Positions 13,532 through 62,677 of a stretch of DNA of 64,000 nt are shown here, in pieces. How positions within the stretch are numbered: position 1 is the first letter of the stretch; each line of letters begins with the position of its first letter. The position numbers and the translations under genes were made by a program. The notes beneath the pieces were generated by a model. It made no database searches. It was not told the origin of the DNA and worked only from the letters and a program-made list of their open reading frames with translations. Origin of the DNA: Streptomyces lydicus (GTDB lineage: Bacteria > Actinomycetota > Actinomycetes > Streptomycetales > Streptomycetaceae); NCBI RefSeq assembly GCF_000717345.1, contig NZ_JNZA01000008.1, positions 186,001-250,000 on the forward strand, written 5' to 3'.

Positions 13532-15124
13532 GTGTCCGAGCAGACACGACCGGGCCGCTTGGTCGGTGGGCGCTACCGCCTGGAGGAGGCCCTGGGCGGC
13601 GGAGGGTTCGGCCGTGTCTGGAGGGCTCATGACCGGACCCTGGATGTCGACGTCGCCGTCAAAGAGGTCTGGCTCCCCCCGGCGACATCCGAGACGGAGC
13701 ACGCGCAACGACTGGTACGAGCGGAGCGGGAGGCCCGCAACGCCGCCAAGCTGCGCTCCCACCCCTGTGTCGTCGCCGTCCACGATGTGGTCATCGAGGA
13801 CGGGGCGCCGTGGATCGTCATGGAACTCGTCGAAGGCGCCAACCTGGCCGACAGGCTCGCCGAGAACGGCCCGATGCCGGTGGCGGACGTCGCGCGGATC
13901 GCCGGCGAACTGCTGGAAGGTCTCGGAGCCGCACACCAGGCGGGAATCGTCCACCGGGACGTGAAGCCCACCAATGTGATGCTCACCCGCGACGGCCGGG
14001 CCCTGCTCGCCGACTTCGGCATCGCTGTCCACAAGGGTGATACGGCCGTCACCACGACCGGAGGGCTGATCGGCTCGCTGGAATACATGGCGCCGGAGCG
14101 GTTCGACGGTGTCGACTCCGGTGGCGCGGGAGACCTGTACTCCCTGGGCGTGACGCTGTACCAGGCGCTGGAGGGGGTGTCCCCGTTCCACCGCGACACC
14201 CCCACGGAGACCCTGTCCGCCGTGGTACTCGGACAGGCGCCCGCCCCTCAACGCGCGGGCCGCCTGGGCCCGTTGATCACCTGGCTGCTGGACAAGGACC
14301 CCGCCAACCGGCCAACCGTCGCGCAGGCCCGGGCCGTGATCGACGGGGCCCCGTCGCCCCGGGAGCGCCCCGGGGGCCCAGCGGAGCCGGTCAAGGCGGC
14401 GGATCCCGGAGGGGCCGCGGAGGCCCAGGAGGTCCAGGAGGTCCAAGAGGTCCAAGGGATCCAGGAGGTCCAGGAGGTTCAAGAGGTCCAGGGGATCCAG
14501 GAGCCCCCGATTTCTCCGGCGGCCTCCGAAGCGCCCACGCGCCCCGTTCCCCCGGCGGCTCCCACCCTCCCGCTCCCCCCGCCGCCGGAGCCGAGCCCGC
14601 GCCGCCCTCGCGCGCTCGTCGTCGCGGGCGCCGCTGTCGTCGTCGCGGCCGTCATCGGGGGGATCATCGCCCTCACGGCGAGCGGCGACGGCGACGCCGC
14701 CGACACCGGCGCGAGCACCCCGCCGAGCTCCTCGGCCCCGGACCGGGCCGGAGCGGGTGACGCGTCGGGATCCTCGTCCGGCGGCAGCGGCGGCCTCACC
14801 ACCGAGGCCGGTTGCGAGAACTGGTCCGAGACCGTCAAGAAGTGGGACCGGATCGTCACGTCCGACCGCTACGGCAACGGCAAGGCACCGATCGAGGACC
14901 TGCTCCGGGAGATCCAGGACCTGGACCGGGCCAACCTCGCCAAGGCGACGAAACCGGCGGTCAAAGCGGGGCTGCAAAAGGACCTGGCAGGCGCCACCAA
15001 GGCCCTCGACGCCCACCGCTCCGGCGACGAGCGGGGCTTCAGCAAAGTGCTGTACGAACGCGCCTCCAGCGGCATGGACATGGTCAGCGCCTGCCACGGG
15101 TTGGATTCCTCGTCAGGGTCCTGA
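13532..15124 (+). CDS. Membrane Ser/Thr protein kinase with repeat linker
   Basis: PknB-type eukaryotic-like kinase, 530 residues from a GTG with AGGGGGAG upstream. The cytosolic kinase domain (about 14-270) is complete: glycine loop LGGGGFG (21-27), Lys44 in VAVKEV, HRDVKPTN at 141-148, DFG at 161-163, APE at 187-189. A linker at 297-323 is made of tandem E-V-Q and G-I-Q triplets from a 9-bp DNA repeat, then a Pro-rich stretch. One membrane segment (361-383) leads to a Ser/Gly spacer and an external domain of ~120 residues with a Cys pair (VSACHG near the end). No PASTA repeats, so it is not the wall-sensing PknB itself. Substrates are unknown. Confidence 0.93.
   Translation: MSEQTRPGRLVGGRYRLEEALGGGGFGRVWRAHDRTLDVDVAVKEVWLPPATSETEHAQRLVRAEREARNAAKLRSHPCVVAVHDVVIEDGAPWIVMELVEGANLADRLAENGPMPVADVARIAGELLEGLGAAHQAGIVHRDVKPTNVMLTRDGRALLADFGIAVHKGDTAVTTTGGLIGSLEYMAPERFDGVDSGGAGDLYSLGVTLYQALEGVSPFHRDTPTETLSAVVLGQAPAPQRAGRLGPLITWLLDKDPANRPTVAQARAVIDGAPSPRERPGGPAEPVKAADPGGAAEAQEVQEVQEVQGIQEVQEVQEVQGIQEPPISPAASEAPTRPVPPAAPTLPLPPPPEPSPRRPRALVVAGAAVVVAAVIGGIIALTASGDGDAADTGASTPPSSSAPDRAGAGDASGSSSGGSGGLTTEAGCENWSETVKKWDRIVTSDRYGNGKAPIEDLLREIQDLDRANLAKATKPAVKAGLQKDLAGATKALDAHRSGDERGFSKVLYERASSGMDMVSACHGLDSSSGS
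14420..14500 (+). repeat. Nine 9-bp units inside the Ser/Thr kinase gene
   Basis: Nine in-frame copies of a GAGGTCCAG-like unit. Units 2-5 and 6-9 form a 36-bp higher-order repeat: three GAGGTCCAR-type units, then GGGATCCAG. They encode E-A-Q, then twice three E-V-Q plus one G-I-Q. The copy number could change by slippage without breaking the frame. Confidence 0.9.
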
Positions 15125-15165: not shown

Positions 15166-16137
15166 TCAGTGCCCGGTCGTCTCTCCCTGGGCGACCTCGA
15201 CGGTCTGGTGCAGGTCGGCGGCGGCGTCCAGGGCGGAGGCCGCGGAGAAGGTGACGCAGGTGAGCAGGGCCGCGGCGATCAGCCGGCGGCCGCGGAAGCC
15301 GGTGCGCAGGGCGGGGGTGTGCGGCTCGGGGGCGGGGGTGAGCAGGGCCGCGACCCGGCGCGGCACCGGGCCGGCGGTCGCGGCCAGGACGGTGCGGGGA
15401 CGGTACGGCGCGGGGGCGTCCGGGCGGGCGGCCAGCGCGGCGCGGCCGATGGCGCGGGCGGTCAGCCGGCGGTCGCCGACCCGGGACGCCGCCGACTCGT
15501 CGGCCCAGCGCTCCAGCGCGAAGGCCAGCGGGGCGCGCAGCGAGCGCAGCAGGGGGTGGCAGGCGGCGGCCAGCGCGACCGTGAGCAGGAAGAGGTGGTG
15601 CCGCCCCGCGAGGTGGGCCCGCTCATGGGCGAACAGCGCCTCCCGCTCGGCCGGCGACAGCGCGCGCAGCATGCCGGCCGTGACCACCACCCGTCCTGGC
15701 CGTCCCGGCCCTCCCGGCAGGGCGTAGGCGTCGGGCGCGGCATCGGGGAGCACGCACAGGTCGCCGGAGACCGGGTGCGCGGCGGTGCCGCGGCGGGCGG
15801 CCCGCAGCTCGCCGCGGTGCCGGGCGGTGCGGTACGCCACCGCGCACGCGCAGGCGGAGAGCAGCCCGACGGCCACCCACGCGGCCGGGACCGACACGGC
15901 CGGATCGTCGCCGAGCAGCGGCAGCGAGAGGTGTTCCAGCGCGGCGACCGGCGGCAGCCGCAGCGCGCCGGCGGTGGCCAGCAGGCCGAGCGCGGCGGTC
16001 GTGCAGCCGGCCAGCAGGGCGGCGCAGCCGGTCAGCAGCCAGGCCGCGGGGCGCGGCGGCAGCGACTCGGCCAGCCGGCGGGCGGCCGGCACCGCGAGCA
16101 GCGGCATCAGCAGCGGGATCCAAACGGCGAAGATCAC
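15166..16137 (-). CDS. M56-family membrane metalloprotease (BlaR1/MecR1-like, no sensor domain)
   Basis: Integral-membrane zinc protease of 323 residues. Hydrophobic segments lie at about 3-18, 31-58, 83-101, 181-195 and 286-302. The cytosolic-side zinc motif is HERAH at 171-175 with a likely third ligand in ERWADES (209-215). In BlaR1/MecR1 this domain cleaves, directly or indirectly, the BlaI/MecI repressor after beta-lactam binding, but here no penicillin-binding sensor domain follows the last membrane segment. Its start overlaps the stop of the BlaI-type gene by four bases (ATGA), so the two are translationally coupled. The signal and substrate are inferred from the family pairing. Confidence 0.88.
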   Translation of the reverse strand: MIFAVWIPLLMPLLAVPAARRLAESLPPRPAAWLLTGCAALLAGCTTAALGLLATAGALRLPPVAALEHLSLPLLGDDPAVSVPAAWVAVGLLSACACAVAYRTARHRGELRAARRGTAAHPVSGDLCVLPDAAPDAYALPGGPGRPGRVVVTAGMLRALSPAEREALFAHERAHLAGRHHLFLLTVALAAACHPLLRSLRAPLAFALERWADESAASRVGDRRLTARAIGRAALAARPDAPAPYRPRTVLAATAGPVPRRVAALLTPAPEPHTPALRTGFRGRRLIAAALLTCVTFSAASALDAAADLHQTVEVAQGETTGH

Positions 16138-16556
16138 GGGGCGGCCCCGGGTCCGGTCCGCGGGCCGGCGTCCGGCGTCGGGTCGGCGCCCGCGCCCTCC
16201 AGGAGGGTGCGCAGCAGCTGCTCGTCCTCGTCGGTCAGCTGCGAGACGAAGCGGGCCAGCGCGGTGCCGCGGTCGTCCTGCTTGTCGAGTTCGCTGCGCA
16301 TCCGCCGGGCGGTCAGCCCCGCGGAGTCCTGTATCGGTGAGTAGGCGAAGCCCCGGCCGGCTCTGGAGCGGGAGACCACGCCCTTGTCGTGCAGCCGGGT
16401 GAGGATCGTGGTGACGGTCGTACGGGCCAGCCGGCCCCCGAGGGCGCCCTGCACCTCGGCCGGGCTCAGCGGCACCCCGGCCGTCCAGAGCGCGGCGAGC
16501 ACGCTCGCCTCCAGCTCGCCGGCGGGGCGTCGCCGCGCGGGTGGGGTCTGCGACAT
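16134..16556 (-). CDS. BlaI/MecI/CopY-family transcriptional repressor
   Basis: Winged-helix repressor of 140 residues. The DNA-binding half (about 11-75) has LEASVLAALW, the LSPAEVQ helix, the ARTTVTTILTRLHDKGVVSR recognition region (20 residues) and the wing GRGFAYSP. The dimerisation helix follows, and the last ~20 residues are an extra Ala/Pro/Gly tail. Repressors of this family are inactivated by proteolysis or by a co-factor; the coupled M56 protease downstream is the expected antagonist. Two GTCTAC-N6-GTAGaC sites lie 24-60 bases upstream, in the region shared with the divergent dedA-type operon, so it probably represses both itself and that operon. Confidence 0.93.
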   Translation of the reverse strand: MSQTPPARRRPAGELEASVLAALWTAGVPLSPAEVQGALGGRLARTTVTTILTRLHDKGVVSRSRAGRGFAYSPIQDSAGLTARRMRSELDKQDDRGTALARFVSQLTDEDEQLLRTLLEGAGADPTPDAGPRTGPGAAP

Positions 16557-16579
16557 GGAACGCCCTTCAGCTGATCGTC

Positions 16580-16616
16580 GTCTACAGTTCCGTAGACCGT
16601 CTACGTGACTGTAGTC
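16580..16616. promoter_or_regulatory. Double BlaI-type operator between divergent operons
   Basis: Site A is GTCTAC-AGTTCC-GTAGAC at 16580-16597. Site B is GTCTAC-GTGACT-GTAGTC at 16599-16616, one mismatch in the last half. The centres are 19 bp apart. The outer arms also form CTACAGT/ACTGTAG and the centre CGTAGAC-C-GTCTACG. The TACA/TGTA core matches known BlaI/MecI operators. It lies between the repressor start (16556) and the DedA start (16671). Confidence 0.75.
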
Positions 16617-16670
16617 GGTCGGGCCGGCCGCCCGGCAGGCCCGCAACCCATTATGGGAGGGGCCACCGAC

Positions 16671-17384
16671 ATGGCCGTAGCCGCCGCATTCGCGCAGGTG
16701 ACGGGAGGCGTGCCGGGCACGATCCAGGCCGTCGACGTGCTCGACGCCGGCTCGCTGCTCGCGACCTTCGGTGCCCTGGGCGTCGCCGTCGTCCTCTTCG
16801 CCGAGACCGGGCTGCTCGTCGGCTTCTTCCTGCCCGGCGACTCCCTGCTCTTCACCGCCGGGCTGCTGTGCGTCCCGGGTGCCGGCGGCGCCGCCCACCT
16901 CGCCCTGCCGCAGGTGCTCCTCGCCGCCGCGGTCGGAACACTCGCCGGCTCCCAGACCGGCTACTGGATCGGCCGGCGCGGCGGCCGCAGCCTGCTCGCC
17001 CGCAGCCGTGCCCGCAAGCTCCGCGAGGGCGCCGCCCGCGCCGAGGAGTACCTGACCCGCTACGGCCACGCCAAGGCCATCGTCCTGGCCCGCTTCGTCC
17101 CCGTCGTGCGCACCGTCCTCAACCCGCTGGCCGGCACCCTCAACGTGCCGGCCCGTACCTTCACCCTCTGGCAGGTCACCGGCGGTCTGGTTTGGACGCT
17201 CGGCCTCACCCTCGCCGGATACGGCCTGGGCGCATCCGTACCGAACGTCGACCGCTATCTGCTGCCGATCGTCGCCCTCGTGGTGCTGGTCTCGCTGTCC
17301 CCGATCGCCCTCGAAGTGCTGCGCGCCCGCCGCCGCCCGGCCGCGGCCCCCGGCGACGCCCCGACCCCGCCGCCCGGCACCTGA
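16671..17384 (+). CDS. DedA-family membrane protein (VTT domain)
   Basis: Membrane protein of 237 residues from the ATG at 16671, which has GGGAGGGG eight bases upstream; in-frame ATGs at 16605 (ORF limit) and 16653 are less likely. Family landmarks are FAETGLLVGFFLPGDSLLF near residue 45, the GSQTGYWIGRRGGR loop, the re-entrant segment with FVPVVRTVLNPLAGTL, and several C-terminal membrane segments. Some DedA proteins are now known to flip undecaprenyl phosphate back across the membrane for wall synthesis; others handle phospholipids. It heads an operon with two PAP2 phosphatases and is divergent from the BlaI-type repressor, whose operators sit in its promoter. Confidence 0.92.
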   Translation: MAVAAAFAQVTGGVPGTIQAVDVLDAGSLLATFGALGVAVVLFAETGLLVGFFLPGDSLLFTAGLLCVPGAGGAAHLALPQVLLAAAVGTLAGSQTGYWIGRRGGRSLLARSRARKLREGAARAEEYLTRYGHAKAIVLARFVPVVRTVLNPLAGTLNVPARTFTLWQVTGGLVWTLGLTLAGYGLGASVPNVDRYLLPIVALVVLVSLSPIALEVLRARRRPAAAPGDAPTPPPGT

Positions 17385-17433
17385 CCGGCCCCGCCGCACC
17401 ACCGCACCCACTGCACGCCGCCAAGGAGCACCC

Positions 17434-18039
17434 GTGAACCACCTCGCCTTCGGCGGAGCCTCGATCGACGGCGGCGCCTACGTCGGGATCACCCACCTCG
17501 CCCGGCACGCCCCGCACGGCCTGAACACCGTCATCACTTACTTCAGCGACTACGGGCTCGCCCTCTTCGCGGTGCTCATGCTGATCGCCTGGTGGCGGGC
17601 GCGGCGCGGCGGGGCGGGCGCCGTGGCGCGGGCGCTGGCCGCCCCCGCCGTCGTGGTCGTCGCCTTCCTGCTCAACGACGTGTTCAAGAGCGTCTTCGAC
17701 GAGCAGCGGCCCTGCCGCACGCTGCACACCGTCACGGTCGAGGTCTGCCCCGGCCTCGGGGACTGGTCCTTCCCCAGCAACCACTCCGCCATCGCGGCGG
17801 CCGCCGCGGTCGCCCTCTTCCTGTGCGACCGGCGGCTCGGCCGGATCGCCGTACCGGCCGCGCTCCTGATGGCGGCCTCCCGCGTCTGGATCGGCGCGCA
17901 CTACCCGCACGACGCCGTCGTCGGCCTGCTCGTCGGCACCCTCGTCGCCTGGTGGCTCACCCCCCTGGCCGGCCGCGCGTCGCCCGTGGTCGACCGGATC
18001 GGCGCCACCCGGCTGCGCCCCCTGGTGGCCGCGCGGTGA
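17434..18039 (+). CDS. PAP2-family phosphatase (first of two)
   Basis: Integral-membrane phosphatase of 201 residues. The three catalytic motifs of the PAP2/type 2 phosphatidic acid phosphatase family are present: KSVFDEQRP at about 88-96, FPSNHS at about 112-117 with the proton-transfer His, and SRVWIGAHYPHD with the nucleophilic His at about 155. Bacterial homologues (BcrC/PgpB class) dephosphorylate undecaprenyl pyrophosphate or lipid phosphates on the outer face of the membrane. It lies 49 bases after the DedA gene, and its stop overlaps the start of the second PAP2 gene. Start: GTG with AAGGAG a few bases upstream. Confidence 0.92.
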   Translation: MNHLAFGGASIDGGAYVGITHLARHAPHGLNTVITYFSDYGLALFAVLMLIAWWRARRGGAGAVARALAAPAVVVVAFLLNDVFKSVFDEQRPCRTLHTVTVEVCPGLGDWSFPSNHSAIAAAAAVALFLCDRRLGRIAVPAALLMAASRVWIGAHYPHDAVVGLLVGTLVAWWLTPLAGRASPVVDRIGATRLRPLVAAR

Positions 18040-18785
18040 CCGGGCCCGGACGGGACGCGGAGACCGGACCGGAGCGGGGCACCGGACCGGTGCCGCGGCC
18101 GCGGCGCCCCGGTACCCGGCCGCTCCTCGCGCTCGCCGCGCTCTGCGCCACGCTGTTCACCGCCGTCGCCGTCACCGTCGCGGTGCGGCACGGCGCCCCG
18201 CTCGCCCCCGAGGAGGCCGTCCACCGCTGGGCCCTGGCGCACCGCGGGGAACCGCTGCGCTCGACGGCCGGCGCACTGACCGCCACCGGAACCGGCCCGG
18301 TCCCGTACCTGATGGCCGTCCTCGCGGGCCTGCTGGCCGGCCGGGGCGCGCGCGGACGGCTGCGCGCGGTCGCCTGCGCGGTCGCCGTCCTCGCCGTCGA
18401 CCAGGCGGTCCGCTACGGCCTGATGGAAATGCTCGCCCGGCCGCGGCCGACGACCGCCGACTGGGCCGGGCGCGCCTCCGGCTACGCCTTCCCCTCCGGC
18501 CACGCCACCACCTCCGCGCTCGCCGCCGGCCTGCTGGCCTGGGGCATCGCCCGGTACGCCGGCCGGGGCCCGGCCCGTACCTGGTGCGCGGTGCTCGCCC
18601 TCTGGGCCGTCGCGGTCGGGCTCACCCGGGTCTGGCTGGGCGTCCACTGGCCCGGCGACGTGCTGGGCGGCTGGCTGCTGGCCGGTACCGTGCTCAGCCT
18701 CGCGCTGCTCCTGGAGCGGTACGTCCTCCCGGACCGGTACGCGGCGGTCGGGCTGCCCGAATCGGGCGGCGCAGGACCTGCGTGA
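18036..18785 (+). CDS. PAP2-family phosphatase (second of two)
   Basis: 249 residues from a GTG that overlaps the previous stop (GTGA), implying coupled translation. A Pro/Arg-rich cytosolic start precedes the first membrane segment (about 33-53). The PAP2 motifs are ARPRP (motif 1, with Met/Leu in place of the usual upstream Lys region), FPSGHATTSA (motif 2) and TRVWLGVHWPGD (motif 3). It differs clearly from its neighbour in motif 2 (SGH versus SNH) and in length, so this is not a recent duplication; the two may act on different lipid phosphates. It is the last gene of the DedA - PAP2 - PAP2 operon. Confidence 0.92.
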   Translation: MTGPGRDAETGPERGTGPVPRPRRPGTRPLLALAALCATLFTAVAVTVAVRHGAPLAPEEAVHRWALAHRGEPLRSTAGALTATGTGPVPYLMAVLAGLLAGRGARGRLRAVACAVAVLAVDQAVRYGLMEMLARPRPTTADWAGRASGYAFPSGHATTSALAAGLLAWGIARYAGRGPARTWCAVLALWAVAVGLTRVWLGVHWPGDVLGGWLLAGTVLSLALLLERYVLPDRYAAVGLPESGGAGPA

Positions 18786-58618: not shown

Positions 58619-59521
58619 GTGCAGCAGCAGGCTCTTGCGTCGCGGATCGGCCGGATCGGCGTCTGGCACGGCGGGCTCGGCCGGATCCCGGCCGCCACCG
58701 CCCGCCGGGCGGCCGCCGAGATCGAGCAACTCGGTTACGGCGCACTGTGGTTCGGCGAAGGGCCCGGCACCAAGGAGGCGTTCAGCCACGCGGCGCTGCT
58801 GCTCGCCGCCACCGAGCGGATCACCGTCGCCACCGGCATCGCCAACATCTGGGGCCGGGACGCCGCCGCCGCGAACGGCGCCACGCACACCCTCGCGGAG
58901 GCGTACGACGGCCGTTTCCTGCTCGGCCTGGGTGCCAGCCACGCGCCGATCGTCAGCCTGCGCGGCCACACGTACGCCAAGCCGCTCGCCGCGATGCGGG
59001 ACTACCTCGACGGGATGGACGCGGCCCCGTACGAGGGCCCGGTGGCCGAACCACCGCCGGCCCGGGTGCTGGCGGCACTGGGCCCGAAGATGCTGGAGCT
59101 GGCCCGGGACCGGGCGGCCGGCGCCCACCCGTACCTCGTGCCCACGGACCACACGGCCCGCGCCCGCGAGATCCTCGGGGACGGCCCGCTGCTCGCCCCC
59201 GAACAGGCCGTCGTGCTGGAGACCGACCCGGCGAAGGCCCGCGCCGCCGCCCGCGCCCACACGCGGTTCTACCTGGAGCTGCCCAACTACGTCGGCAATC
59301 TGCGCCGGTTCGGCTTCGACGACGACGACTTCACCGGCGGCGGCAGCGACCGGCTGGTCGACGCGCTCGTGGCCTGGGGCGACGTGGACGCCGTCCGGCG
59401 CCGCGTACAGGAACACCTCGACGCGGGCGCCGACCACGTGGCCCTCCAGCCGCTCGCCGCGGACGGCGACCTGGGCCTCGATCAACTCCGTGCGCTGGCA
59501 CCGGCGTTGACCGGGTCCTGA
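58619..59521 (+). CDS. LLM-class F420-dependent oxidoreductase
   Basis: 300 residues from a GTG with GGAGGAAC close upstream. It has the luciferase-like TIM barrel: IGRIGVWHGGLGRIPAATA at the start, YGALWFGEG, the ITVATGIANIWGRDAAAANGA strand-turn and FLLGLGASHAPIV, which match TIGR03620-type F420 enzymes. It is expected to use reduced F420 on an unknown substrate, a chemistry common in actinomycetes. Its last 40 bases overlap the end of the convergent COG4705-like gene. Confidence 0.9.
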   Translation: MQQQALASRIGRIGVWHGGLGRIPAATARRAAAEIEQLGYGALWFGEGPGTKEAFSHAALLLAATERITVATGIANIWGRDAAAANGATHTLAEAYDGRFLLGLGASHAPIVSLRGHTYAKPLAAMRDYLDGMDAAPYEGPVAEPPPARVLAALGPKMLELARDRAAGAHPYLVPTDHTARAREILGDGPLLAPEQAVVLETDPAKARAAARAHTRFYLELPNYVGNLRRFGFDDDDFTGGGSDRLVDALVAWGDVDAVRRRVQEHLDAGADHVALQPLAADGDLGLDQLRALAPALTGS

Positions 59522-60366
59522 GTCCTGGGGGCGGTACCCGCCGGCTGCCCGGACGGGGTGTCCTTGTGACTGATCGCCAGGTAGCCCACGAGCAGCACGA
59601 TCGGCACGACGAGCGCCAGCGTGACCGGACCCGTCCCCCAGCCGAGGCCGCCGCGGGCGGTGGAGACGCCCATCCAGTCGGCGAAGGAGGCACCGAGCGG
59701 ACGGGTCAGCACGTACGCCCACCAGAAGGCGGCGACGGCGTTGAGCCCGAGGAAGCGTCCGGACAGTGCGGGCACCGCGATGAGGGCCGTGAACAGGAGG
59801 CCGGAGGCCAGATAGCCCCAGTGCAGGGTGCCCGCGGTGAGGTCGCCGACCGCGGTGCCGAGGGCGAAGGTGGCGAGCACCGTCGCCCAGTAGAACGTCT
59901 CGCGGCGGCGGGTGCGGATGCTGTGGATGGACAGCGTTCCCTCGGACGCGTACCAGACGGTCAGCAGCGCGGCCAGTCCGAGCGAGAAGGCGATGACCGA
60001 GACCGGGTAGGGGATGCCGGCCACGACGTGCACGACATCGGCGGCCATGGTGCCGAAGACACTGACCATGACGATGGCGGACCAGTAGACCCAGGGCCGG
60101 TAACGGGTGGTCCGGAACTGGAGGACCAGCAGGGCCACCAGGCCGGCCAGCCCGAGGCTGCCGGCCGGGATCGGCCCGAGCGTCCGGCCGAGGTAGTCCG
60201 AGGCCGTCTCGCCCATGCCTGTGGTGAGTACCTTCACCCCCCAGAACAGGGCCGTGACCTGAGGTACCTTGCTCCAGCCCGGTCCGTTTCCGACCTGAGG
60301 CACGGGGGTGCGGGACCGCTCCCCGTGCACGGGCCGTGCCAGCGCCTCGCTGCTCGACTGCGCCAT
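59482..60366 (-). CDS. COG4705-like integral membrane protein
   Basis: 294 residues from the ATG encoding MAQSSSEALARP, with GGACAGGACG upstream; a longer frame to 60417 lacks a ribosome site. It has about eight hydrophobic segments with an internal repeat: KVPQVTALFWGVKVLTTGMGETASDYL in the first half and the FYWATVLATFALGTAVGDLTA and FWWAYVLTRPLGASFADWM regions in the second. The repeated G-E/D/A-x-D motif in membrane segments suggests cation handling. Function is not established. A perfect GTCTAC-N6-GTAGAC site lies 107 bases upstream, so the BlaI-type repressor in this window may control it. It overlaps the convergent oxidoreductase gene by 40 bases. Confidence 0.85.
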   Translation of the reverse strand: MAQSSSEALARPVHGERSRTPVPQVGNGPGWSKVPQVTALFWGVKVLTTGMGETASDYLGRTLGPIPAGSLGLAGLVALLVLQFRTTRYRPWVYWSAIVMVSVFGTMAADVVHVVAGIPYPVSVIAFSLGLAALLTVWYASEGTLSIHSIRTRRRETFYWATVLATFALGTAVGDLTAGTLHWGYLASGLLFTALIAVPALSGRFLGLNAVAAFWWAYVLTRPLGASFADWMGVSTARGGLGWGTGPVTLALVVPIVLLVGYLAISHKDTPSGQPAGTAPRTQDPVNAGASARS

Positions 60367-60460: not shown

Positions 60461-60502
60461 CCCGGACCCATCGTCTACAAGACTGTAGACGATGGGTCCG
60501 GG
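60461..60502. promoter_or_regulatory. 19-bp perfect inverted repeat holding a BlaI-type operator
   Basis: CCCGGACCCATCGTCTACA (60461-60479), loop AGAC, and TGTAGACGATGGGTCCGGG (60484-60502). The core GTCTAC-AAGACT-GTAGAC (60473-60490) equals the double operator at 16580-16616 in half-sites and 6-base spacing. As RNA it is also an excellent terminator, and the chitinase gene ends 95 bases away on the minus strand. It may serve both roles. Confidence 0.7.
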
Positions 60503-60596: not shown

Positions 60597-62354
60597 CTAC
60601 GGCAGCCCGTGGACGTGCGGGCCGACCGCGTTCGACCAGGCATTGCCGTTCGCCGCGTCCCAGTTGGTGGACCAGGTCATGGCGCCCCGCAGGCCGGGGT
60701 ACGTCTTCGCGGGCTTGAAGGAGCCGCAACCAGTGCCCTTGGTGAGGCAGTCCAGGGCCGCGTTGACGACGCCCGGCGCGACATAGCCGCTGCCCGCGCC
60801 ACGCGTGGAGGCGGGCAGCCCGAGGCCCACCTGCGAGGGGTCGAGGCCGCCCTCCAGTTGGATGCAGGCCAGCGCGGTGAGGAAGTCGACCGACCCCTGG
60901 GAGTACACCTTGCCGTCGCACCCCAGCATGGAACCGCTGTTGTAGTACTGCATGTTGACGACGGTGAGGATGTCCTTGACGTTCAGCGCGGTCCGGAAGT
61001 AGCCGCCCGACGTCGACTGCATGTCGATGGTCTGCGGCGCCATCGTGAGGACGAGTTTCCCGCCCGCCTTCTGGGAGAGGGAGCGCAGCGCCTGCGTCAT
61101 ATAGGTGGGGTTGAGCCCGTTTTCCAGGTCGATGTCGACGCCGTTGAAGCCGTACTGCTGCATGAGGGCGTAGACGCTGTCGGCGAAGTTGGCGGCCGAG
61201 GCGGAGTCGTTGACGGAAACGGTGCCCTTCTCGCCGCCGACGGAGAGGACGACCGACTTGCCGGCCGCCTGCTTGGCCTTGATGTCGGCCTTGAACTGGT
61301 CGACGGTGTAGCCGCCGAGACCGGCCGAGTCGAGGTTGAAGGTGACGGCACCGGGCGTGGTCGTGGCGTCGGCGAAGGCGACCGCGATGATGTCGTACTG
61401 GCCCGGCACGTCACTGATCTTCTGGACGGTGGCGCCGTTGTTGAAGTTCTGCCAGTAGCCGGTGACCGCGTGCTTGGGGACGACGGGGTCGGTGCCGCCG
61501 CCGGACGGCGCGGTGGTCGCGGACACCTCCGCCGACCGTGCGGATTCCCCGGCCGCGTTGCCGGCGGTCACCTGGAAGCGGTAGGCGGTGGCGGGGGACA
61601 GCCCCGTGACGGTGGCCGAGGTGCCGCTCACCGTGCGGTCCTTGGCTCCGTCGCGGTAGACGGTGTAACCGGTGGCGCCGGCGACCGGGTTCCAGGACAG
61701 CGCGACCGACGACGACGTCACGGCGCCGGCGGCCAGACCACCGGGGGACGCCGGCACTCCGGGACCGGGGTCGGTGCCGCCCCCACCATCGGGCCCGAAG
61801 ACGGTGAAGTCGTCGGCCAGATAGGCGGGTTGCCCGTACCACCCATGGGTGTAAACGGTGACGGAGGTGGTGGCGGGGCCGGTGGTGAACGTGGTCGCGA
61901 GCTGCTGCCAGTCGGTGGCGGACGGAGTCCATGTCGAGACGTCCGTGGTCCCGGTACCCGACGCGCCCAGATAGACGTACGAGCCCTGCACGTACGCGCT
62001 GAGCCGGTACGTCGCACCGGGCTTGACGGCGACGACCTGCGAGCAGGTGGCGTTGTCCGACGCGCTGGGCGTGGCCTTCAGCGCGGCGACGCCCCCGTGC
62101 ACGGGCGAGCCCACGGTGCTGCCACTGCCCGCCGAACAGGTCCAGTTGCTCAGCCCGGCCTCATACCCGGCGTTCTTGGCCACATTGACGTCGGCCGCTG
62201 CCGCGCCTGTGGCTGCAGAGGCCGGAGGGACCGGAGAGGCCGAAGCCGGAGTGAGGGTGGCGGTCGTGGTGACCGCGGCGGTGGCGAGTACGGCCAGCAG
62301 CCCGCCGAACAGGCGTCTGTGGCGCGACGGTCGGGTGAGCGCGGTACGAGGCAT
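60597..62354 (-). CDS. Secreted GH18 chitinase with CBM and FN3 domains
   Basis: 585 residues from the ATG encoding MPRTALTRPSRHRRLF, with GGAGACAGGT just upstream. A signal peptide (about 1-42, ending PASASP) precedes a carbohydrate-binding module (about 58-198, NVAKNAGYEAGLSNWTC..ADDFTVFG). Next come a Gly/Pro linker, one fibronectin III domain (about 208-292) and the GH18 barrel (about 300-585). The catalytic DxDxE is D407-I-D409-L-E411 in GVDIDLENG. It hydrolyses chitin outside the cell. A DasR-like site TGGTTCAGACCA lies 136 bases upstream, so induction by chitin-derived sugars is expected. Confidence 0.95.
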   Translation of the reverse strand: MPRTALTRPSRHRRLFGGLLAVLATAAVTTTATLTPASASPVPPASAATGAAAADVNVAKNAGYEAGLSNWTCSAGSGSTVGSPVHGGVAALKATPSASDNATCSQVVAVKPGATYRLSAYVQGSYVYLGASGTGTTDVSTWTPSATDWQQLATTFTTGPATTSVTVYTHGWYGQPAYLADDFTVFGPDGGGGTDPGPGVPASPGGLAAGAVTSSSVALSWNPVAGATGYTVYRDGAKDRTVSGTSATVTGLSPATAYRFQVTAGNAAGESARSAEVSATTAPSGGGTDPVVPKHAVTGYWQNFNNGATVQKISDVPGQYDIIAVAFADATTTPGAVTFNLDSAGLGGYTVDQFKADIKAKQAAGKSVVLSVGGEKGTVSVNDSASAANFADSVYALMQQYGFNGVDIDLENGLNPTYMTQALRSLSQKAGGKLVLTMAPQTIDMQSTSGGYFRTALNVKDILTVVNMQYYNSGSMLGCDGKVYSQGSVDFLTALACIQLEGGLDPSQVGLGLPASTRGAGSGYVAPGVVNAALDCLTKGTGCGSFKPAKTYPGLRGAMTWSTNWDAANGNAWSNAVGPHVHGLP

Positions 62355-62677
62355 ACCTGTCTCCAGTGCCGAAGAGGGGGAGCCCGAAACCCGGGCAGAA
62401 CTGCACGAGACGGTGGCCACCGCAACGAGGGCCGGCCCGAACACCGCTCCGGACACCGATCCGACACCGGTCCGACCCTGGCCACAGAATGGTTCAGACC
62501 AATGGGCCGGTCAAGGGGCGCGACAAGACCGAGTTCGGGTACGGAGCCGACCCGTCCCCGCCGCGCCCCGGCCAGGGTGCGACCGCTCAACTGCCTTGCA
62601 TGCCAGGCCGGTTCCGTTGTCGGTGCGGTATGCCAAAGTAGGCCGACAACTGGCATGGAAGAGACCGAGGTCGGTAA
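62355..62677. promoter_or_regulatory. Divergent promoter region, chitinase / Pro-Gly-rich membrane protein
   Basis: 323 bases with no gene between divergent starts. It holds the chitinase ribosome site, the DasR-like element and, near 62678, the GAGGTCGG-type ribosome site of the rightward gene. The rest shows no clear signal. Confidence 0.5.
62488..62503. promoter_or_regulatory. DasR-responsive-like element upstream of the chitinase gene
   Basis: AATGGTTCAGACCAAT: the core TGGTTCAGACCA (62490-62501) differs at two adjacent positions from the chitinase/DasR consensus TGGTCTAGACCA. Its distance from the chitinase start (about 135 bases) is in the usual range. Confidence 0.65.

Follow-up and report, generated by a model that had tools for sequence, protein, structure and literature searches.

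A candidate BlaI-type regulon for undecaprenyl phosphate recycling around a dedA-PAP2-PAP2 operon of Streptomyces lydicus

The 64,000-nucleotide stretch of Streptomyces lydicus DNA analyzed here (referred to below as the window) corresponds to positions 186001-250000 of contig C8 (NZ_JNZA01000008.1, assembly GCF_000717345.1) of an 8.18-Mb genome, and it contains a protease-BlaI gene pair (15166-16556, minus strand) that diverges from a DedA-PAP2-PAP2 gene group (16671-18785, plus strand) across two palindromes. The repressor gene (16134-16556, minus strand) encodes a 140-aa BlaI-family protein that matches Pfam Penicillinase_R over the cut-off (7.8e-23) and contains no cysteine, and its reading frame overlaps by 4 bp that of a 323-aa membrane zinc protease of the M48/M56 type (15166-16137, minus strand), which corresponds to the protease part of BlaR1 only. 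The protease shows a HERAH motif at residue 171 and five hydrophobic segments in a simple hydropathy scan, and a Pfam scan (E 0.001) did not find a penicillin-binding domain in it. On the opposite side, a 237-aa DedA/VTT-domain protein (16671-17384, plus strand; VTT domain 1.1e-21, over the cut-off) is followed by PAP2-a (17434-18039, plus strand; Pfam PAP2 4.2e-23) and PAP2-b (18036-18785, plus strand; Pfam PAP2 1.3e-17), the latter starting either at 18036, with a 4-bp overlap with PAP2-a, or at 18090, the start chosen by the gene-calling script. This layout of BlaI against DedA-PAP2-PAP2 had been put forward in an original prediction made from the letters of the DNA, and all of its genes were found in place with a Pfam match for each; the partner of BlaI, which had been labeled M56, is indeed a membrane zinc protease, and for it Peptidase_M48 (2.3e-10, above the cut-off) scores better than Peptidase_M56 (5.4e-4, below the cut-off). 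Among the named loci compared, that of Streptomyces inhibens NEAU-D10 (L217) is the closest, with identities of 84% (DedA), 83% (protease), 85% (BlaI), 78% (PAP2-a) and 78% (PAP2-b).

The two palindromes, neither of which is assigned to a strand, repeat with a period of 19 bp and have the joint form GTCTAC-N6-GTAG[A/T]C. Operator 1 (16580-16597; GTCTACAGTTCCGTAGAC) is a perfect GTCTAC-N6-GTAGAC located 24 bp upstream of the BlaI start, and operator 2 (16599-16616; GTCTACGTGACTGTAGTC) reads GTCTAC-N6-GTAGTC and lies 55 bp upstream of the DedA ATG. This ATG at position 16671, which is preceded by GGGAGGGG, is the likelier DedA start, because the alternative GTG at 16605 falls within operator 2. 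When up to one mismatch was allowed, the operator pattern gave 6 matches in the window, i.e., three places on both strands, and 100 shuffles of the window gave a mean of 0.09 matches and a maximum of 2. The proposal that the BlaI and DedA operons share operators is therefore borne out by two palindromes in the gap, far above the shuffle expectation. The third place (60473-60490, no strand assigned; GTCTACAAGACTGTAGAC) is a perfect operator-like site upstream of a gene for a 294-aa DUF347 membrane protein with 8 predicted helices (59482-60366, minus strand), a possible member of the regulon. Nevertheless, this site is ambiguous and may be either a DUF347 operator or a piece of a terminator, since it sits within a perfect hairpin with 19-bp arms (60464-60499; minimum free energy -43.2 kcal/mol, z -8.95) that is located between the DUF347 gene and a chitinase-like gene (60597-62456, minus strand).

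Elsewhere in the same genome, single sites with one mismatch were of no use, because the control pattern gave as many matches or more in this GC-rich genome (46 forward and 43 reverse versus 34 and 30 for the operator). At 0 mismatches, TCTACN6GTAGW gave 8 + 8 matches versus 5 + 3 for the control, and since the control also matches, single sites were counted only when they had support in relatives; the site at C34:56055, which has a GC-rich spacer, was set aside as probably due to chance. The operator is nevertheless present in trans before an accessory uppP/BacA gene and before a response regulator gene, so that the parts of the putative regulon are scattered over several places. At C4:158307, a perfect half-site pair lies between a BacA/UppP gene, whose product contains a BacA domain (1.5e-81; L074:5012-5854), and an acyltransferase gene. 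A tandem pair at C17:60891/60910 precedes a response regulator-kinase gene pair, beyond which lie two DUF347 genes.

The genus was then surveyed for recurrence of the tandem operator, using 121 genomes, a tolerance of up to 3 mismatches and the reversed pattern as control. The operator was found at 59 sites in 38 of the 121 genomes, and the reversed pattern gave 0 matches in all 121. At 55 of the 59 sites, a module gene (BlaI, DedA, PAP2, UppP, response regulator, DUF347 or EfeUO) lies within 500 bp and points away from the site, the remaining ones being L079, L087, L091 and L107. At 21 of the 59 sites BlaI and DedA stand on opposite sides, and the BlaI start is 22-27 bp from the tandem operator in 28 out of 34 cases. 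The fullest modules (e.g., L244 and L238) consist of protease-BlaI, the operator, DedA-PAP2-PAP2-regulator-kinase and then a DUF347 gene facing them, and L112 carries a module of this type that lacks DedA. A strict single site, GTCTACANNNNNGTAGAC, was looked for in 18 of the 38 genomes that have the tandem operator and occurred at 34 distinct places in 17 of these 18 versus 1 control match; 8 of these places are outside tandem sites and precede PAP2-a (two), PAP2-b, EfeO-EfeU, DedA, BlaI-protease, DUF347 and accessory UppP genes. In relatives, the operator thus stands also before further PAP2, DUF347 and efeO/efeU genes. These data, obtained by the neighborhood survey that had been recommended along with the original prediction, reveal a module conserved in relatives. 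A chance adjacency of its genes was ruled out by the recurrence of the tandem operator genome by genome without control matches, and local synteny as the sole link was ruled out by the operator sites in trans.

The association was also analyzed starting from each gene class. For DedA, we looked within 300 bp upstream for the tandem operator with up to 4 mismatches or for a perfect WCTACN6GTAGW; one of them was present in 39 of 45 orthologues (at least about 64% identity), in none of 5 DedA proteins at 55-63% identity and in none of 21 DedA paralogues. BlaI genes with a search score of at least 131 bits carry the operator upstream in 40 out of 43 cases; of the 11 BlaI loci added for this comparison, 9 have an operator. 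Accessory uppP genes, 81-100% identical to the copy of S. lydicus, show the operator within one mismatch in 400 bp in 23 of 40 cases (6 perfect), and housekeeping uppP genes in 1 of 31 (none perfect); 10 of those 23 read TCTACAGCACTGTCGA, with one half imperfect, 30-33 bp before the start. The accessory uppP gene is itself part of a BlaI or DedA locus in at least three relatives (L109, L197 and L204). Only 5 of 23 response regulator genes have the operator within 300 bp upstream, because most of these genes are internal to DedA or PAP2 operons. In genomes devoid of the tandem operator, a perfect core site of the TCTAC type precedes 7 of 9 lower-scoring BlaI paralogues (L358-L362, L364 and L365), and the 18-bp GTCTAC-N6-GTAGWC within one mismatch precedes none of the 9. 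That the core is common to BlaI genes speaks for BlaI as the protein that binds it.

In a class-wide sample, the tandem operator was found in 8 of 296 genomes, all 8 from the genus of S. lydicus itself. In 17 of 80 named DedA loci, a tandem operator (4 mismatches at most) separates DedA from BlaI, and loci with this order include Kitasatospora and Peterkaempfera. Outside the family, parts of the gene set occur together without the operator: DedA is accompanied by PAP2, protease and BlaI in Geodermatophilus (L242), by PAP2, DUF347 and a regulator-kinase pair in Modestobacter (L272), and by DUF347 in Nocardioides (L291) and Kineococcus (L252). In a Pseudonocardia bin (L246), likewise without operator, DedA is found together with a distant BacA (30%) and a regulator-kinase pair. 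A record titled Saccharothrix sp. ST-888 (L231) contains a streptomycete-type module with operator and may be mislabeled or the result of transfer. In Streptomyces plumbidurans (L230), whose name suggests lead tolerance, a tandem operator with 2 mismatches precedes the DedA gene, and in one relative (L088) a gene for an MprF-like lysyl-phosphatidylglycerol synthase faces DedA.

The enzymes encoded by the module were compared with characterized families. BacA/UppP proteins are phosphatases of undecaprenyl pyrophosphate (C55-PP) that belong to a family unrelated to PAP2. The NCBIfam models nearest to PAP2-a are those of the C55-PP phosphatases SepP/PRK11837, with scores below the cut-offs, and its motifs K-x6-RP, PSNH and SR-x5-H-x3-D are all kept in 59 out of 59 sequences. 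PAP2-b is nearest to PgpB/SepP, again below the cut-offs, and has PSGH and TR-x5-H-x3-D in the window copy; PSGH and a third motif of the form [T/S/G]R-x5-H-x3-D are present in 40 out of 40 PAP2-b sequences each. For DedA, the nearest models are those of E. coli DedA (PRK10847) and UptA, both below their cut-offs (50 bits versus the UptA cut-off of 250). The match to PRK10847 suggests that it is a member of COG0586 and, by family, a putative flippase of undecaprenyl phosphate, an activity that has been proposed for COG0586 DedA proteins in the available passages of a report that also describes DedA-PAP2 fusions (PMC10127716).

The operator marks DedA and also two C55-PP phosphatase families that are unrelated to each other. 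A BlaI-type regulon enriched for undecaprenyl phosphate recycling is therefore well supported at the sequence level, and control of carrier recycling is the best reading of PAP2, BacA and DedA genes that stand under the same operator. The locus would then be the core of a regulon that boosts this recycling, an explanation that, taken as a whole, we favor with moderate confidence. According to it, BlaI (this protein or a paralogue) would sit on the paired palindromes and repress its own protease operon and dedA-PAP2-PAP2, as well as scattered targets such as the accessory uppP, DUF347 and two-component system genes and, in relatives, extra PAP2 and efeO/efeU genes. Once activated, the membrane protease would cut or release BlaI, and the whole set would be induced together; both the repressing role of BlaI and its release through the protease are suggested by analogy with the family. 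PAP2-a, UppP and perhaps PAP2-b would dephosphorylate outward-facing undecaprenyl pyrophosphate, and DedA would bring undecaprenyl phosphate back to the inner leaflet. The trigger would be carrier trapped at the outer face, by an antibiotic that binds undecaprenyl pyrophosphate or by a heavy metal, rather than β-lactams as such. The original prediction had pictured a carrier-recycling module induced by wall stress. Its recycling part agrees with the operator shared by DedA, PAP2 and uppP and conserved in relatives, but wall stress as the inducer is not supported in the form proposed, given a protease without penicillin sensor domain, the metal-transport neighbors of several modules and a lead precedent discussed below.

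Several observations weigh against this explanation. The efe, nicO and DUF347 genes do not fit a role restricted to wall precursors. The motif-1 lysine of PAP2-b is present in 0 of 40 sequences, and the UptA, SepP and PgpB NCBIfam scores are far below the cut-offs, so that the substrate of DedA and PAP2 is a deduction from family. The association is moreover incomplete, since 6 of the 45 DedA orthologues and 17 of the 40 accessory uppP genes lack the operator, and a BlaI scoring 131 bits or more is missing from 6 of the 38 operator genomes but present in 5 of the 83 others. Only one of the 11 further BlaI loci (L357, with UppP-PAP2-b-BlaI) adjoins carrier genes. Finally, the core being common to BlaI paralogues, a single core site is not specific to the BlaI of the module, and the BlaI that acts in trans may be this one or a paralogue.

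The foremost alternative holds that the regulon is a defense against divalent metals of the lead type, carrier recycling being a by-product. C55-PP phosphatases would release phosphate outside the cell and precipitate the metal, as proposed for PbrB, DUF347 would be an exporter, and the FTR1-type EfeU would be an adjustable metal importer. In agreement with this alternative, three paralogous uppP-DUF347 operons of Frankia are up-regulated by lead, as stated in the available passages of PMC4531530, this being the sole published induction that we found for part of the gene set; uppP and DUF347 are co-induced partners there, as proposed here, but BlaI and DedA are not mentioned in the main text. 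The pbr system of Cupriavidus (PbrT, PbrA and PbrB), as far as described in the excerpts available (PMC4790310 and PMC3431237), likewise combines divergently a C55-PP phosphatase, PbrB, with an FTR1-type transporter, PbrT, of the iron-lead transporter family; unlike the system studied here, it has a MerR regulator and a P-type ATPase, and those excerpts mention neither DedA nor BlaI. In place of a pbr-type MerR regulator, BlaI adjoins the operon here. CopY copper repressors have a C-terminal cysteine metal site, and the cysteine-free BlaI of the window differs from them in this respect.

The neighbors of the modules point in the same direction. FTR1-imelysin EfeUO genes lie opposite DedA across the operator at 6 of the 59 sites, and around the modules EfeUO was found in 9 of 37 genomes, EfeB in 8, NicO in 7 and EfeO in 3, versus 0 of 20 control loci for each, some genomes contributing two or three loci and each control genome one; these efe/nicO counts may be inflated by synteny within one clade. 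At efeO/efeU genes the operator stands beside an iron-box-like element (L066:4581, L094:11002 and L219:10928), which shows 4-7 mismatches to an iron-box consensus in 7 of 7 loci tried; among 100 random 150-bp stretches compared with the same consensus, 92 gave 9-11 mismatches and 4 gave 7 or fewer. A dual control of iron uptake at these genes is possible. In L343, a CDF-like gene, named from its sequence alone, faces PAP2 across the operator. As for DUF347, its alignment shows residues E53, D57, D110, E156, D175, R222 and D230 conserved in predicted helices. Metal stress as the trigger has at least as much circumstantial support as wall stress. However, no P-type ATPase was recognized in neighbor clusters of at least three loci, of which 9 representatives were scanned without a search with ATPase models, the module of the window has neither efe nor nicO nor CDF genes next to it, and the structure model of DUF347 gave no significant fold match. 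In addition, the adjacency may partly be the shared synteny of one clade, and DedA has no defined role in such a defense, which we consider rather unlikely as an account of the whole regulon.

Wall and metal triggers could also act through the same lesion, i.e., carrier stuck at the outer face. A broader and tentative version of the regulon proposed above, possible but not likely, would have a dedicated protease-repressor circuit sense carrier-lipid trouble, such as trapping at the outer face by metals or antibiotics, and tie recycling to metal traffic. DUF347 would then join the carrier cycle as a new functional partner and might transport metal or even the carrier itself.

A classical response to β-lactams, or to wall drugs in general, was considered as well. 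BlaI and the protease would work as BlaI/BlaR1 do, with carrier recycling induced as a resistance function. Like the BlaI/BlaR1 and MecI/MecR1 systems, the locus combines a BlaI-family repressor, an adjoining membrane zinc protease, i.e., the signaling core of BlaR1 systems, and palindromic operators. BlaR1 of Staphylococcus aureus senses β-lactams, and in Bacillus subtilis SigM mediates the response of the carrier-recycling genes to wall stress, which induces them, according to the available passages of PMC12565901 and PMC11081497, respectively. Nevertheless, the 323-aa protease matches only M48/M56 and, in contrast to BlaR1, lacks the penicillin-sensing domain, and the labeled targets are carrier-lipid genes instead of a β-lactamase or PBP2a. 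No β-lactamase or penicillin-binding protein was present among the labeled neighbors of the operator or recognized in the neighbor clusters, of which 9 representatives were scanned. Taken together, these results make a classical response of this kind improbable.

It is very improbable that the tandem site is bound not by BlaI but by the response regulator (OmpR type) of the two-component system associated with the module: although regulators of at least 65% identity occur only in operator genomes (24 of 38 versus 0 of 83), they are missing from 14 of those 38, the operator precedes far fewer regulator genes than BlaI genes (5 of 23 versus 40 of 43), the core is also found at paralogous BlaI genes of genomes that lack the tandem operator (the 7 of 9 above), and TCTACAAGGATGTAGA and TCTACAAGGTTGTAGA flank a BlaI paralogue operon on contig C14.

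The regulon proposed here can also be compared with known circuits that control similar genes. SigM of B. subtilis controls bcrC, uptA, tagT and tagU in the available part of PMC11081497, which similarly places a C55-PP phosphatase and a DedA-type flippase class under one stress regulator; in contrast, the regulator here would be a repressor with a protease rather than an extracytoplasmic function (ECF) sigma factor, and BacA, DUF347, a two-component system and iron uptake are added. The BlaI protein of Mycobacterium tuberculosis (Rv1846c) is likewise an actinobacterial BlaI with several targets in trans, but those named in the passages available are blaC, sigC, atp genes and Rv1303, and not dedA, PAP2 or uppP. 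That regulon was reportedly described by Sala et al. in 2009. The original prediction knew of no description of the combination, and no BlaI-controlled dedA/PAP2/uppP regulon was described among the matches listed in searches of open PubMed Central papers. To our knowledge, how a shortage of undecaprenyl phosphate is sensed and corrected has been little worked out outside Bacillus, and an operator shared by two unrelated carrier phosphatase families and DedA offers a directly testable recycling regulon in antibiotic-producing actinomycetes. It would also give a regulatory home to DUF347, an uncharacterized membrane family, and a possible bridge from metal stress to wall synthesis.

Further BlaI loci were noticed during the survey. 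A BlaI-protease pair that carries the operator and has no DedA or PAP2 alongside recurs in L349-L356, L069, L100 and L102, mostly adjoining genes of about 130 and 356 aa that look glyoxalase-like and deaminase-like by eye. A gene of the SBF family (bile acid symporter-like) recurs beside operator-bearing BlaI or PAP2 genes (L069, L102 and L344:3152-4901, the last one named by eye). The paralogous BlaI/M48 operon of contig C14 (L116:2710-6500) is flanked by two TCTAC-N6-GTAGA palindromes (TCTACAAGGATGTAGA and TCTACAAGGTTGTAGA), one of which points to a gene of the LytR-CpsA-Psr family, the family of TagT/U, so that a second BlaI regulon linked to carrier-linked glycopolymers is possible there. 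In the window itself, short repeated units (GGTCCAGGAGGTCCAAGAG-like) occur at 14430-14500 within a Ser/Thr-kinase-like gene.

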